Part shown: piece after piece, positions 16,701 to 20,796 of the stretch
Layout: every line of letters starts with the position of its first letter
How positions within the stretch are numbered: position 1 is the first letter of the stretch
Virus record (IMG/VR): IMGVR_UViG_3300037460_000245
Location: 1-38,327 of that record
Source: a virus
Length of the DNA: 38,327 nucleotides
Reading direction: 5' to 3' (one strand)
Translations under genes and position numbers: made by a program
Notes under the pieces: model-generated
The model's database searches: none
What the model was told of the DNA's origin: nothing
Seen by the model: the letters and a program-made list of their open reading frames with translations, nothing else

Positions 16701-17495
16701 TTAAAAGATAGGTAATTTTTCTAATGATGTTTTTGAAACATGAGTGTAAATTTCTGTTGTTTTACTGCTTGCGTGTCTTGCAAGCTTCTGGATTAATCTT
16801 TGATTCACTCCCTTGTCCATTAAATGGGTCAAGCACGAGTGGCGCAAGGTGTGGAAAGTATATCTTTCCCCGAAATAACGCTTTACTATTTTATTGCAAC
16901 TATTGGCACTATATTGTGCTTTTGATTGTCCGTTGAATAAATACTCTTTTGGCTGGTACGCTTTGAAATACTTGCGGAGTAAAAATAATATATTCTCAGA
17001 AAGTGGCAAATAAGCATCTTTATTGCCTTTCCCTTGGATTACTTTTATTTGCATACTGTCGGAATTGATATCCTTAATTTTAAAATTAACAATATCAGAA
17101 ACTCTCAACGCGTCAGAATAAGCAAGAGCAATAATTGCTTGATGCTTTAAATTAGTAATTGAATTTATTTTACTCCTAATTATTGATTCAGGTATAACAT
17201 CAGGGAGCTTTCTTTCTTTTCTTGGGCGCTCGAATTTTATTTTTCCATACTTACGATTTAAAACCTTTTCATAAAAGAATTTTAAAGCGTTGATTATTTG
17301 GTTTTGTTGAGAACCTGAAGAGAATTTATAATTTTCAAGGAATAATTGAAAATCTTTCCCGGTTAAATGCTGTGAGTACTTGCGTGTAAATATCAGAAAC
17401 TTTTCAATATAATGACAATATGTTGAAATCGTATTTTCAGAATATCTAAAATATTTAAGTTTTTGATTCGTAATTCTTAAAATTGATTCGTGCAT
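16701..17495 (-). CDS. int: Tyrosine recombinase / integrase
   Basis: A 264-residue enzyme with an N-terminal SAM-like core-binding domain (1-90) and a catalytic domain. The catalytic residues are all visible: Arg131 (ALRVSD), Lys156 or Lys159 (QGKGNKDAYLP), His215 and Arg218 (HTLRHS), His241 (LARHAS) and Tyr250 (TEIYTH). The gap between the LP strand and HTLRH is of Xer length, so the extra I2 domain of integron integrases is absent. It could integrate the phage or resolve multimers. It directly follows the cassette-like block, with 53 nt from the last small ORF. Confidence 0.88.
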   Translation of the reverse strand: MHESILRITNQKLKYFRYSENTISTYCHYIEKFLIFTRKYSQHLTGKDFQLFLENYKFSSGSQQNQIINALKFFYEKVLNRKYGKIKFERPRKERKLPDVIPESIIRSKINSITNLKHQAIIALAYSDALRVSDIVNFKIKDINSDSMQIKVIQGKGNKDAYLPLSENILFLLRKYFKAYQPKEYLFNGQSKAQYSANSCNKIVKRYFGERYTFHTLRHSCLTHLMDKGVNQRLIQKLARHASSKTTEIYTHVSKTSLEKLPIF

Positions 17496-17548
17496 TTGTT
17501 TAATATTTAGCTAGTTATTGTATTGGTTTTTTATATGGTAGTTAGGCA

Positions 17549-17848
17549 CTATAGTTTCTTTTTATCACACCATTCTTTAAACATATCCTCGTAAGTTGTA
17601 GTATAACTACCCTTACCATAATTTCCAACGTATCTAGCAAAAGAAACATACAGTTCGCTTTGCTGCCTAACAATATTTAAAGGCAATGCTTGTTCCTGCT
17701 CTTTATTATCACCATTCGCTTGGTACTCTCTAATAACTTGCACAGCTTTCAATAATCCTTTATTGTAACCGCTCCAATATTGAGTAGCTGTTTCAACTTT
17801 TTCACTTTTTATTTCTTCAACCATTTTATCAATATTCAAATCGCTCAT
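17549..17848 (-). CDS. Cassette-like small ORF, last before the recombinase
   Basis: A 99-residue acidic helical protein (MSDLNIDKMVEEIKSEKVET), with YWSGYNKGLLKAVQVIREY and the motif ALPLNIV that recurs in the next ORF upstream. No family recognised. Right after the stop is GCCTAAC, which matches the RYYYAAC inverse core of integron cassettes. It is separated from the next upstream ORF by 85 non-coding bases, unlike the overlapping genes elsewhere. Confidence 0.6.
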   Translation of the reverse strand: MSDLNIDKMVEEIKSEKVETATQYWSGYNKGLLKAVQVIREYQANGDNKEQEQALPLNIVRQQSELYVSFARYVGNYGKGSYTTTYEDMFKEWCDKKKL

Positions 17849-17933
17849 TATTTCCGTGTGTTAAAATTTATATTATCAATTATGTTTATCTCAATCCGTA
17901 GCACTGCCTTTAAAATTAACGTTGTAGCTAATA
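17849..17933 (-). repeat. Cassette spacer A with AACGTT boundary
   Basis: An 85-nt non-coding spacer between two same-strand small ORFs. On the coding strand it starts right after a TAG stop with TATTAGCTACAACGTTAATT. The plus-strand block CCTTTAAAATTAACGTT (17907-17923) is nearly identical to that in spacer B. Confidence 0.6.
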
Positions 17934-18281
17934 CTAGTCACAACTATCTATACTGCAAACGTATTCCCATGTTTGCCCTGGGTAAAGTTGCTCTACCTTC
18001 ACGCATGCAGCGGTATAATTATCTTCAGTAATAATCCGATTCACACCATTTACTTCGAAAAAGAAAGTACTAGCTACAACAATATTTAAAGGCAAAACTT
18101 CCTTTTCGCTTGTTTTATTTTTGGCTTGCGCTGCAAATTCTGTTAACCATCCTGCAATTGGTATCTGCTGCAAAAAGTCTCCACTCGTATCAAAAATTGT
18201 ATAGTTCTCTAAGTTTAGTCCTTTTGCTTCTAAAAAGTCACCAGCTTCTTTTAATTCTTCAATCTCATACTTTCTATCCAT
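17934..18281 (-). CDS. Cassette-like small ORF with LPLNIV motif
   Basis: A 115-residue acidic protein (MDRKYEIEELKEAGDFLEAK), with VLPLNIV and a C-terminal TWEYVCSIDSCD. The shared motif lies in an otherwise different protein, and the DNA under it (CAATATTTAAAGGCAA on the plus strand) is also shared with the 99-residue ORF. Spacer B lies before its ATG and spacer A after its stop. No recognised domain. Confidence 0.55.
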   Translation of the reverse strand: MDRKYEIEELKEAGDFLEAKGLNLENYTIFDTSGDFLQQIPIAGWLTEFAAQAKNKTSEKEVLPLNIVVASTFFFEVNGVNRIITEDNYTAACVKVEQLYPGQTWEYVCSIDSCD

Positions 18282-18370
18282 CGCTCTAAATTTGTTAAAT
18301 TTCTATTTCACGTTTAAAATTCTCAATAATCCGAAGGGCGTTCAGCCCTTAAAATTAACGTTATATGCAA
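18282..18370 (-). repeat. Cassette spacer B with AACGTT boundary and hairpin
   Basis: An 89-nt spacer. On the coding strand it begins after TAA with TTGCATATAACGTTAATTTT and then a perfect hairpin, AAGGGC-TGAAC-GCCCTT (18350-18345 with 18339-18334). The boundary is close to that of spacer A. Its GCATATAAC is the exact complement of GTTATATGC next to the downstream end of spacer C. Confidence 0.6.
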
Positions 18371-18568
18371 TTAGCACACGCTCATTACTTGGTCATCATT
18401 CATGTGTGCAATTTCTAGCATCTTACTAGCAATAAAATCAAAGTGTTCTTTATCATAAGCTTGCGAAAATCCTTCATTTGCGTTTTGCTCATTCGCCGCA
18501 ATCATTCCCTGAACCTCTGTTTCTAACGCCGTAACTAATATTAATCTTTTTACTCCTACATCCGTCAT
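18371..18568 (-). CDS. Cassette-like small ORF (65 residues)
   Basis: The protein starts MTDVGVKRLILVTALETEVQ and ends DDQVMSVC; mostly helical with a middle EGFSQAYDKEHFDFIASKML. I chose the ATG at 18568 because the sequence before it (TTGAGCGGTGGCAAAATATA) matches the leader before the 19115 and 19948 genes; a GTG at 18610 could add 14 residues. No family recognised. Non-coding spacers flank it on both sides. Confidence 0.5.
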   Translation of the reverse strand: MTDVGVKRLILVTALETEVQGMIAANEQNANEGFSQAYDKEHFDFIASKMLEIAHMNDDQVMSVC

Positions 18569-18704
18569 GTTTTCTATATTTTGCCACCGCTCAATAAAAG
18601 CATATAACACGTTGTCAAACGCAATTACTTGTTAATAAGCTGTGTATGTTTATAATTAAATCCTGTTCATTCTATTTGGTTCAACTGCGTTTACAACAAA
18701 TCCA
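18569..18704 (-). repeat. Cassette spacer C with long bulged inverted repeat and shared leader
   Basis: A 136-nt spacer. Arms at 18683-18697 and 18611-18626 form a 15-16 bp inverted repeat with one mismatch and one unpaired base, 56 nt apart. An unpaired base in a long stem is a hallmark of integron attC hairpins. Past the stem on the coding strand lies GTTATATGC and then the shared leader TTGAGCGGTGGCAAAA. Confidence 0.6.
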
Positions 18705-19115
18705 TTATACTTTATTTGCCACCCGCACAAACTCGTTTAGTCCAGCTTGGCTATCAATATGGTAAAAGCCAATAAATCCGTTCTCTTCCCATTCCTTTGG
18801 TGGTGGGCATCCACAATGCCCAGTTACTCTAATTTTATTACCATATTTACCCACACGGCTATGGCTGTCAAACATTTCGTCAGGGTATTGTTTTTCATGC
18901 ATCTCCGTAGCTTCTTTTAACGGTATCCCGTTGCCGTCTGCCACCGCTACCCAATAGTACCAAGCCCGTGTAAGTGTCCAATTACCAACCTTACCAATTA
19001 ATGTATAAGGCACTTCACTTCTTGCGAGTTCTTGTTTTACGGGCTTTAATCCAGCCCTTTCAAGTTCAATTCTAATCTGCTCGTCACATCCTTTTACTCC
19101 TGCTAAATTCTCCAT
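18705..19115 (-). CDS. Cassette-like ORF, unknown phage protein with CGCPP motif
   Basis: A 136-residue protein (MENLAGVKGCDEQIRIELER) with SEVPYTLIGKVGNWTLTRAW, VTGHCGCPPPKEW and FYHIDSQAGLNEFVR. I set the start at ATG 19115, after the leader GAGCGGTGGCAAAACTTAAC; a longer reading from GTG at 19133 would translate the leader itself. The domain is not recognised by name. The Trp-rich and CGCPPP segments suggest a compact fold. Confidence 0.6.
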   Translation of the reverse strand: MENLAGVKGCDEQIRIELERAGLKPVKQELARSEVPYTLIGKVGNWTLTRAWYYWVAVADGNGIPLKEATEMHEKQYPDEMFDSHSRVGKYGNKIRVTGHCGCPPPKEWEENGFIGFYHIDSQAGLNEFVRVANKV

Positions 19116-19280
19116 TTTGTTAAGTTTTGCCACCGCTCAAAAACAAAGTATAACAACAACTAAAAATAAAAGCTGTCACATAAGTTATACCAGTCATACT
19201 GCGGAGTTGGTTAATATTTACTATTGTTTAAATTCTCTTAGTCACATACGCTTCAATTCTTAGCTAAACGTTAGCGGTAA
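19116..19280 (-). repeat. Cassette spacer D with AACGTT boundary, GTATAAC/GTTATAC pair and shared leader
   Basis: A 165-nt spacer. On the coding strand it begins after TAA with TTACCGCTAACGTTTAGCTA. Further on, GTATAAC (19200-19194) and GTTATAC (19154-19148) are exact complements 39 nt apart, like the R'' and R' pair of an attC. The shared leader TTTTTGAGCGGTGGCAAAAC follows. Confidence 0.6.
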
Positions 19281-19628
19281 TTAAACCACCAACTCAGCTC
19301 TTTTTAAGTTTAGGTTATTACCCTCCTTATTATAAAGGAAACAACCCCACGGCATTATTTCTATTTTTACCACCAAAAATTCATCGCCAATATGCCATCT
19401 TAAGTGGTCTTCAATTGCACAAGAATCATCCAGCCTATCCTCTTTTATAACTCGTACAGTTTTACCAACAACATCATTAACAATATTTTTAACTTGCTCT
19501 CGGTGGTACTCTTCAGCGTATATTTGCATTGCCTCAAGTATGTACGGCTTTAATTTTTCTTCACCAATTACAGCCCAAGGCATTTCCTCACGCATTGCTT
19601 TAAATATAGTTTCCTTACTCATAATCAT
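19281..19628 (-). CDS. Cassette-like ORF, hypothetical
   Basis: A 115-residue protein (MIMSKETIFKAMREEMPWAV), helical for about 55 residues, then a beta-rich end: GKTVRVIKEDRL, WHIGDEFLVVKIEIMPWGCF and LKRAELVV, which looks like a small SH3/KOW-like barrel. The start could be Met1 or Met3. No catalytic motif. The flanking spacers D and E separate it from neighbours on the same strand. Confidence 0.5.
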   Translation of the reverse strand: MIMSKETIFKAMREEMPWAVIGEEKLKPYILEAMQIYAEEYHREQVKNIVNDVVGKTVRVIKEDRLDDSCAIEDHLRWHIGDEFLVVKIEIMPWGCFLYNKEGNNLNLKRAELVV

Positions 19629-19738
19629 TCGTTCTTTTAATTCATTAAAATTACTGTGAATAGCCTCATACTGTTGTAGTTCATTAAAACGAAACTACAA
19701 CACATAATATAAATAATGCGCTGTAGCTCGTATCAACT
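19629..19738 (-). repeat. Cassette spacer E with perfect 10-bp hairpin
   Basis: A 110-nt spacer. TGTTGTAGTT (19672-19681) and AACTACAACA (19693-19702) form a perfect 10-bp stem with an 11-nt loop. On the coding strand, AGCTACAGCGCAT occurs 9 nt after the stop, a degenerate version of the GCTACAACGTT boundary in spacer A. No T-run follows on either side, so it does not look like a terminator. Confidence 0.6.
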
Positions 19739-19948
19739 TTATTCCTCCCCACGCAATTCTTTAAGGTCAGCAACTTCACATTTTTCTGTGTAATTATCTA
19801 ATAATGCTGCACCTATTTTGTCCCATGAAACCCACATTGAAGTTCCTTTTACATTTCCAGTTTTTAATTTTGCTGGAATATTTGTGTGTAATGTAACACC
19901 TTGTTTACCTGCGTTGCTGAATCCTGTAATAATTACTTTATTTGCCAT
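19739..19948 (-). CDS. Cassette-like ORF, hypothetical
   Basis: A 69-residue protein (MANKVIITGFSNAGKQGVTL) with KGTSMWVSWDKIGAALLDNY. It is short and beta-rich at the start. The FSNAGKQG stretch resembles a P-loop, but the protein is too small for an NTPase, so this is probably chance. The leader GCGTGGGCAACACTTAAATA matches those before the 19115 and 18568 starts. Confidence 0.5.
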   Translation of the reverse strand: MANKVIITGFSNAGKQGVTLHTNIPAKLKTGNVKGTSMWVSWDKIGAALLDNYTEKCEVADLKELRGEE

Positions 19949-20053
19949 TTTATTTAAGTGTTGCCCACGCTCGCAAACGTGGAGGTTTATATCTCGTATG
20001 TAATGTAGTGCGTATGCGAGGGCGCACTATTCATATTATTATACGTTACTCCC
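19949..20053 (-). repeat. Cassette spacer F with nested inverted repeats and shared leader
   Basis: A 105-nt spacer. TAGTGCG (20006-20012) pairs with CGCACTA (20023-20029), and outside it CGTAT (19995-19999) pairs with ATACG (20041-20045), giving two stem blocks with an uneven internal loop. CCACG and CGTGG (19965-19982) form a smaller hairpin. On the coding strand GAGTAACGTATAA follows the upstream gene's stop. Confidence 0.55.
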
Positions 20054-20419
20054 CTAAAGAACCCCCTCCACAATATCAATAAACTCCTCCAGCGAACGAA
20101 TTTCGAAGCCCTTTCCTCCTTGTTTTTCTACTTGTTGGATGTGTGCCTTTTGCTCCTTACTCATTCGGTCATTTCCGACCTTGAAATCCATTACATACAA
20201 TACCCCTGCGTAATAGAATGTAAAATCAACAATACCCTTAACCATTCCAAGACCTTTCATTAAGCTAAGTATTATCATGCGCTTTTTGTTGCCTACATTA
20301 CCGACTATCTTCTCGACCTGCTTAATGTCGTTGAAATTAGCCCAGAATAAGCCTCTTAATTCGGGGTGAGTGTTCCAGAGCCAGCGAAAGCAGAATCCTT
20401 GTAATTGGTCGTGTTTCAT
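20054..20419 (-). CDS. VRR-NUC domain nuclease
   Basis: A 121-residue protein, all nuclease domain. GMVKGIVDFTF (Asp65), YVMDFKVG (Asp78-x-Lys80) and MSKEQKAHIQQ (Gln90) give the PD-(D/E)XK pattern of the VRR-NUC family. Stand-alone VRR-NUC proteins are common in phages and probably act on branched or damaged DNA in replication and recombination. It starts 1 nt into the stop of its upstream neighbour and is the first gene before the cassette-like block; spacer F follows it. Confidence 0.8.
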   Translation of the reverse strand: MKHDQLQGFCFRWLWNTHPELRGLFWANFNDIKQVEKIVGNVGNKKRMIILSLMKGLGMVKGIVDFTFYYAGVLYVMDFKVGNDRMSKEQKAHIQQVEKQGGKGFEIRSLEEFIDIVEGVL

Positions 20420-20796
20420 TACTTAATTAGATTAGTTGCTTCTAAAATTCCAGCTTCAAGGGCTTCGTCGTAGGAATTAAATTCCTTCATTTCGTCATGA
20501 GCTTCAAAAAACGGGGACATACAATCCTCTGCTAGTATTTTAAAAACCCAATTATCCCAAGAATCAAATGGAATTACTTGTATTATTAATTTATGATCAT
20601 CCATCAACCATTTTTGAGCGAGGGCTAATGTCGGCGCAGGGAATCTACATTGTTCAACTCTTCTCGCCTGTTGTCTTAATGGAATAACCTGTCCATTAAT
20701 ATCATATGAGTCGTTCCATGTACTAAAACCACATATATACAATTTCTTTGCCGTCTCGAATCCTACTATTTTCAATACTGTATCGCTATGTCCCAT
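20419..20796 (-). CDS. Hypothetical phage protein
   Basis: A 125-residue protein (MGHSDTVLKIVGFETAKKLY). It contains IPLRQQARRVEQCRFPAPTL, ALAQKWLMDDHKLIIQVIPF and a C-terminal helix. The pattern of an apparent substrate-like loop followed by PAPT-LAQKWL recurs in phage proteins of unknown function. I chose the ATG at 20796, which overlaps the previous stop as TGATG; a TTG one codon earlier is less likely. Confidence 0.55.
   Translation of the reverse strand: MGHSDTVLKIVGFETAKKLYICGFSTWNDSYDINGQVIPLRQQARRVEQCRFPAPTLALAQKWLMDDHKLIIQVIPFDSWDNWVFKILAEDCMSPFFEAHDEMKEFNSYDEALEAGILEATNLIK

Follow-up and report, generated by a model that had tools for sequence, protein, structure and literature searches.

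The viral DNA analysed here (IMG/VR record IMGVR_UViG_3300037460_000245, 38,327 nt, hereafter the window) very probably carries a gene-cassette platform that resembles an integron and belongs to a Bacteroidota tailed phage; it would be run by a tyrosine recombinase that has no I2 domain. The array of small open reading frames (ORFs) in question occupies positions 17496-20053 of this 38-kb window and adjoins the recombinase gene; tailed-phage identity is indicated by helicases, a primase, a head protease, a portal protein, a tape measure protein and a terminase that match PHROGs. What sequence comparison establishes is a set of features: repeated attC units, matched R' and R'' boxes, a conserved attI, breakpoints at AAC and a dedicated I2-less recombinase family. 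The initial annotation had proposed an integron-type phage cassette array moved by such a recombinase, and this proposal is supported by matches to a covariance model, by the predicted strand and by exchange in relatives. It missed the inverted ORFs, the conserved attI-like site, the ORF starts inside attC and the membership of the recombinase in a large Bacteroidota family that has arrays on chromosomes.

Four separate attC-type sites (a to d, Table 1) are found when positions 17401-20500 are scanned on both strands with the pattern AAC/T-G, stem, TGTT-A/G. All are on the minus strand, which is that of the ORFs, and the opposite strand of this interval has no attC-type site by the same scan. 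The scores are 28, 20, 29 and 34 for a, b, c and d; three sites thus score at least 28, and shuffled sequence yields 0.015 sites scoring at least 26. Sites c and d extend beyond the gaps into the next ORF, so that right arm and R' box are coding sequence of ORF2 and ORF1, respectively. The reading of these two sites as having lost the right half proved wrong, as that half sits within the ORFs. Among the R' boxes, GTTAGGC of cassette 1 conforms to GTTRRRY, and GTTATAC, GTTATAT and GTTGTAG do not.

An attC covariance-model search had been suggested as a check. Model R1 was built from 35 Bacteroidota chromosomal attC-like sites only, with no phage sites, and its predicted pairs all show compensatory changes (15/15). 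With filters off and both strands searched, its two best matches in the window are sites a and b. Across 19 sources (phage-type loci L004-L022 and the window), R1 finds 65 matches, all on the recombinase strand. It has no matches on classical IntI loci and is therefore specific to the I2-less family, not a general attC model.

Is the arrangement found in other phages? Counted over 80 viral loci with the recombinase, attC-like sites number 310 upstream of it and three downstream, all on its own strand; the reverse strand and shuffled sequences have none. The three downstream sites all belong to a second array in L242, which is on the same contig as L004; there (L004, 8901-10983), past the first recombinase, lie a further attC array, a further attI and the beginning of another recombinase copy, in this order. 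At least one site is present in 58 of the 60 viral loci with at least 1 kb of upstream sequence. Of the 212 distinct phage-locus sites, 209 are asymmetric between box and stem, with a surplus of 2-4 nt on the 5' side. The R' and R'' boxes of the same cassette agree at a mean of 4.9 of 6 bases and perfectly in 132 of 196 cassettes; shuffled partners agree at a mean of 1.8 bases, as do the two boxes within a single attC. The cargo is mostly unknown: a scan of 47 cassette proteins matched three Pfam families, two of which are DNA methyltransferases.

Integrons have an entry site beside the integrase gene, and a corresponding site is found here. The sequence TAACTAnnATATA or a near variant precedes the recombinase gene in nearly all relatives (56/76 by a strict pattern, most others by eye), and cassette junctions lie 35-90 nt from the recombinase start, at its own attI. 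(Used alone as a locus finder in IMG/VR, the attI motif was of little help; one returned locus had a recombinase relative and the rest looked like chance.) The entry site is marked by the junctions of near-identical phages and by a duplicated cassette. In L006, 394 nt are present twice at 100% identity, mid-array and directly at attI, and identity stops at AAC (the cassette is 388 nt); L246, another contig with an identical recombinase, breaks off within an L006-type repeat. Starting exactly at TAACTATCATATATC, the four loci L257, L258, L259 and L260 share 2.35 kb at 98.5-100% identity, with three different cassettes before that base. L316 and L317 are likewise identical from TAACTATTATATATA and different before it. 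L253 and L295, which have distinct recombinases, share a complete cassette with both edges at TAACG, and L004, L014 and L022 share one cassette protein family (42-56% identity) among differing neighbours. The comparison of related phages that had been called for therefore reveals unit-wise exchange at the exact box. L257 (376-731) and L259 (803-1158) also have the attI-proximal cassette in common, with different sequence beyond its attC, which suggests exchange deeper in the array too.

Could the enzyme be an ordinary lysogeny integrase, with the TAACTAnnATATA site as attP and with accessory genes that carry terminator-like hairpins and do not move as cassettes? In temperate phages, a tyrosine recombinase is as a rule encoded next to attP, which counts for this explanation, and sense-strand hairpins with G.T pairs would also suit RNA terminators. 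The match of R' and R'' within a cassette, the differences between near-identical phages exactly at TAAC, the cassette duplicated at attI and the antisense location of these sites in chromosomes are, however, not what it predicts, and it is extremely unlikely.

Which strand folds? When only Watson-Crick pairs are used to define the stems, the phage sense strand shows 72 G.T versus 5 A.C mismatches (p 3e-16), and the chromosomal antisense strand 93 versus 23 (p 4e-11). The excess of G.T over A.C in both settings points to selection on the AACG...TGTTA strand in phage and chromosome alike. The G.T pairs are also polar, with the G in the 5' arm in 67/72 phage and 88/93 chromosomal cases (A3 columns 22/128 and others); this polarity is possibly a strand signal in place of extrahelical bases. 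Classical integrons use the bottom strand, to which the AACG...TGTTA strand corresponds, and the same layout is visible in the aadA2/dfrA12 cassette and in Shewanella phage M16-3. The ORF lies on this strand in 35/37 phage units versus 2/24 chromosomal ones; in the other 22/24 chromosomal units, it is on the opposite strand, as in classical integrons. Phage cassettes are thus inverted and read towards the recombinase, and ORFs in this orientation could not be transcribed from a promoter lying on the side of the recombinase gene. Codirectionality with the phage operon would explain the inversion.

A different explanation is that the recombinase acts Xer-style on double-stranded dif-like sites, the hairpins being incidental or regulatory. 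Dif-like inverted repeats are indeed frequent in chromosomal attI, and the enzyme shows a likeness to XerA and XerD. But the covariation of all 15 pairs, the one-sided surplus of 2-4 nt in 209/212 sites and the strand-specific G.T bias are marks of a single strand that folds and has polarity, and the Xer-style mode of action is very unlikely.

The recombinase has all six catalytic residues (R131, K159, H215, R218, H241 and Y250), and these columns are invariant in relatives. The statement that it lacks I2 was borne out against ten genuine IntI proteins: at the I2 position, about 47 extra residues are present in all ten, and the window, chromosomal and Xer proteins align to a family hidden Markov model with no insertion. 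It scores 131.6 bits with the IntI model TIGR02249 (cut-off 265) and falls under the cut-offs of TIGR02224/02225 (XerC/XerD). In a quick tree, IntI forms one clade (support 99) and the array-bearing phage enzymes another (94); IntI and the I2-less family together are separated from Bacteroidota XerC/XerD (99), the internal order being weaker. The predicted structure (predicted local distance difference test score 82) is nearest to IntI4. The chromosomal relatives L045 (9155-10807), L053 and L081 (9650-10792) have N-terminal extensions, with open frames of 376-582 aa versus 264 in phages. A recombinase 47% identical over residues 60-261 is frequent on Acinetobacter plasmids (for example NZ_CP104735.1, 1516-2136; FJ012881.1, 'TnpF'). 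L015 (946-1722, on the same contig as L303) encodes a related recombinase with no canonical attI or attC in the sequence examined, possibly through loss of the platform or because of another use.

In Bacteroidota chromosomes, relatives with 40-46% identity precede arrays of this site type, which are 3' of the recombinase gene, with attI immediately after its stop codon. R1 sites are present in 65 of 118 sampled Bacteroidota genomes, namely in 40/43 with the recombinase versus 25/75 without it (p 5e-11). The genome with the largest array has about 70 sites, mostly in one 37-kb block that starts at the recombinase. Long chromosomal arrays behind I2-less integrases are seen in L081 (Flaviramulus), L055 (Gillisia limnaea), L095 and L053, and many chromosomal contigs break just past the integrase, as expected from arrays. 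No IntI over the TIGR02249 cut-off was found in the 19 genomes examined for it (18 with R1 sites), which show a gap at model positions 180-240. G016 is a metagenome-assembled genome (MAG) binned as Methylophaga. Of 94 genomes from its class, only two match R1, one being G016 itself, which has a contig with a phage-type array; IntI over the family cut-off is present in 35 of the 94. L022, from a MAG labelled Methylophaga, is a contig with a phage-type array and a recombinase of the Bacteroidota family, and is probably misbinned.

That hosts carry a related integrase also favours a further possibility, in which the cassettes are real but form a passive attC cluster moved by a host integrase (I2-less Bacteroidota chromosomal enzyme or IntI), while the neighbouring recombinase serves the phage as an ordinary integrase. 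Phage attC clusters with no integrase have been published, some of which recombine with IntI1 (PMC9892861), and Polaribacter phage P12002L has R1 sites but no such recombinase. In the phage clade (support 94), however, recombinase, attI and array are conserved together, the cassette junctions are at the recombinase's own attI, and the phage arrays are inverted relative to the chromosomal ones, which the orientation of a host attI does not explain. A passive cluster is therefore unlikely.

Several points weigh against a platform run by the adjacent recombinase. According to published work, attC recombination requires I2 (PMC7790495, PMC4792948), so the cassettes could be recombined by another enzyme. 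The gaps on either side of ORF6 (two of six) have no complete attC, a relic short hairpin (19702-19672) being the only trace, and site b is weak (R1 E 0.08) with a mutated box. Of the imperfect hairpins reported in the spacers, the one with an unpaired base corresponds to site b (18711-18599). Plain folding of sites a and b is unremarkable, with DNA-fold z-scores of 0.00 and 0.40 that are no better than shuffled sequence. Plain DNA folding is uninformative for these AT-rich sites. Exchange is seen in relatives whose recombinases are about 50-60% identical and not in the window, a single record that has no close sister. Almost all phage loci come from metagenomic contigs, in which repeats can be misassembled.

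How would the platform work? Cassettes, each made up of one small ORF and one attC, would be inserted and removed by the recombinase at the attI-like site that adjoins its gene. The AACG...stem...TGTTA strand would fold as single-stranded DNA, and the recombinase, presumably as a multimer, would join the folded box, at AA/C, with that of attI, the product being resolved as in integrons. As the folding strand is the ORF sense strand in phages, cassettes would enter with the ORF towards the recombinase, in line with the phage operon, and phage transcription, not an integron Pc promoter, could then read them. For some cassette ORFs, the start codon appears to be supplied by the attC loop. Phages would probably benefit through rapid exchange of small accessory genes.

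The array itself largely conforms to its first description. Six short minus-strand ORFs adjoin the recombinase gene as claimed, and the gaps, described as structured spacers of 85-165 nt, measure 85-147 nt, with 53 nt between ORF1 and the recombinase. AAC boxes were said to follow most stop codons, and TTACCGCTAAC, GCATATAAC, TTAGCTACAAC and GCCTAAC do so; the end of ORF4 reads AAAGTATAAT, one base off the box, and ORF6 has no clear AAC box at its end. A GAGTAAC box is also present 3' of the gene upstream of the array. At the far end of the array, ORF5 and ORF6 have no recognizable site on the 5' side, and the 5' box of ORF5 was not found. An Rfam search of the window gave no matches, and an IMG/VR search for relatives of ORF2 and ORF4 gave none or one weak match. 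A misannotated single operon was considered as a reading of the array, and simple terminators or repetitive extragenic palindromic (REP) hairpins as a reading of the spacers; both were rejected.

Table 1. Features of the cassette array and its recombinase in the window
Feature	Position	Strand	Description
Tyrosine recombinase	17495-16701	minus	264 aa; SAM_4 N-domain and catalytic domain; PF00589 3.7e-32, PF13495 1.1e-13
attI-like junction	17531-17547	minus	GCCTAAC/TACCATATAA; 35 nt before recombinase start; last AAC base 17541
Cassette 1	17542-17921	minus	attC d + ORF1; R' TGTTAGGCA matches R'' TGCCTAAC; ends GTTAGGCA/TGCCTAAC
Cassette 2	17922-18360	minus	attC c + ORF2; R' TGTTGTAGCTA matches R'' TAGCTACAAC; ends GTTGTAGCTA/TAGCTACAAC
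Cassette 3	18361-18704	minus	attC b + ORF3; R' TGTTATATGC matches R'' GCATATAAC; ends GTTATATGC/GCATATAAC
Cassette 4	18705-19270	minus	attC a + ORF4; R' TGTTATACTTTG matches R'' AAAGTATAA(T); ends GTTATACTTT/AAAGTATAA(T)
attC a	19272-19151	minus	122 nt; score 28; R1 39.7 bits, E 2.9e-9
attC b	18706-18605	minus	one-base bulge; left box AAT instead of AAC; score 20; R1 E 0.08
attC c	18362-18077	minus	286 nt; TTGCATATAACG / TTAATTTTAAGGGCTGAAC ... GAAGTTTTGCCTTTAAATAT / TGTTGTAGCTAG; score 29
attC d	17923-17668	minus	256 nt; TTAGCTACAACG / TTAATTTTAAAGGCAGTGCT ... AGCATTGCCTTTAAATAT / TGTTAGGCAGCA; score 34
ORF1	17848-17549	minus	99 aa; no family; start inside attC d loop
ORF2	18281-17934	minus	115 aa; no family; start inside attC c loop
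ORF3	18610-18371	minus	up to 79 aa; mechanically called GTG start falls in R' box, likely start later
ORF4	19133-18705	minus	142 aa (136 aa from ATG 19115); PHROG 35792, function unknown, 2.2e-14
ORF5	19628-19281	minus	115 aa; ends at attC a R'' box TTACCGCTAAC
ORF6	19948-19739	minus	69 aa; flanks 20048-19946 and 19760-19683
Relic short-type attC hairpin	19702-19672	minus	TGTTGTAGTT-TCGTTTTAATG-AACTACAACA; 11-nt loop common to short attC of L008, L013 and L016

The surroundings of ORF6 have two further peculiarities. The 11-nt loop TCGTTTTAATG of the relic hairpin (19692-19682, minus strand) recurs in short attC sites with unrelated stems (L008, 5569; L013, 285; L016, 4561). The flanks of ORF6 are 94-95% identical in L012 (4277-4378 and 4546-4626), where they enclose a completely different ORF; the left flank starts directly after an AAC box in both the window and L012, in the manner of a variant attI. 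This may be another form of ORF exchange, or a platform that has degenerated.

What might these arrays mean for the origin of integrons? Integrons have been explained by gain of I2 in an Xer-like ancestor, with intermediates lacking, and a viral origin has been speculated upon (PMC7790495, PMC4792948). An I2-less family on working-looking attI/attC arrays makes the role of I2 directly testable, and raises the question of how single-strand recombination, and the avoidance of a second cleavage, are achieved without it. Tentatively, these enzymes might represent an I2-less integron lineage widespread in Bacteroidota chromosomes and phages, either a surviving ancestral form or an independent single-strand solution; the phages would have their own pool of inverted cassettes and were perhaps an integron source. 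IntegronFinder 2.0 reported one complete integron (Salinibacter ruber) in Bacteroidetes proper, where only In0 had been known earlier (PMC9024848); R1 sites in 65/118 genomes suggest a large unrecorded cassette pool. Phages, for their part, gain a targeted means to trade small genes of unknown function. In the open-access PMC literature (preprints and closed journals being outside the search), no description was found of I2-less Bacteroidota or phage integrons, nor of the attI-linked, inverted form seen in phages.

How do these arrays compare with known systems? With integrons, including sedentary chromosomal ones, they share a tyrosine recombinase, an attI beside its gene, arrays of ORF plus attC, an AACG...TGTTA strand with R and L arms and an asymmetric spacer, matched R'/R'' and junctions at the AAC box; the phage sites have the R''/L''/L'/R' arms and non-conserved centre of an integron attC. 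They differ in that I2 is absent and the recombinase is far under the IntI cut-off, that the attI consensus is TAACTAnnATATA, that the R' box is often not GTTRRRY and that phage ORFs are inverted in the cassette, pointing at the recombinase. The IntI-specific domain is considered a defining characteristic (PMC9668308) and necessary (PMC7790495). As it is absent here on test, the system is not an integron by the usual definition, though it would work like one. Clusters of attC sites lacking integrases (CALIN; at least two attC and no integrase) are known in phages, an example being Polaribacter phage P12002L (PMC9892861). This Bacteroidota phage has attC that match R1 and lie mostly on the strand of its ORFs, and one attC from it recombines with IntI1 (PMC9892861). 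P12002L, however, has no linked recombinase of the I2-less family, whereas in the window phage recombinase and attI are linked to the array. Shewanella phage M16-3 also has an integrase beside a small-gene array with attC, but it is a true IntI with I2 and a LexA site, and the attC strand is opposite the ORFs. XerC/XerD, which act on dif, and archaeal XerA resemble the window recombinase in domain layout, length and absence of I2; the four array genomes checked nevertheless have separate XerC and XerD that form another clade. The Bacteroidota chromosomal I2-less arrays have the same recombinase family and attC model and differ in having the array 3' of the gene and the ORFs in the classical orientation.

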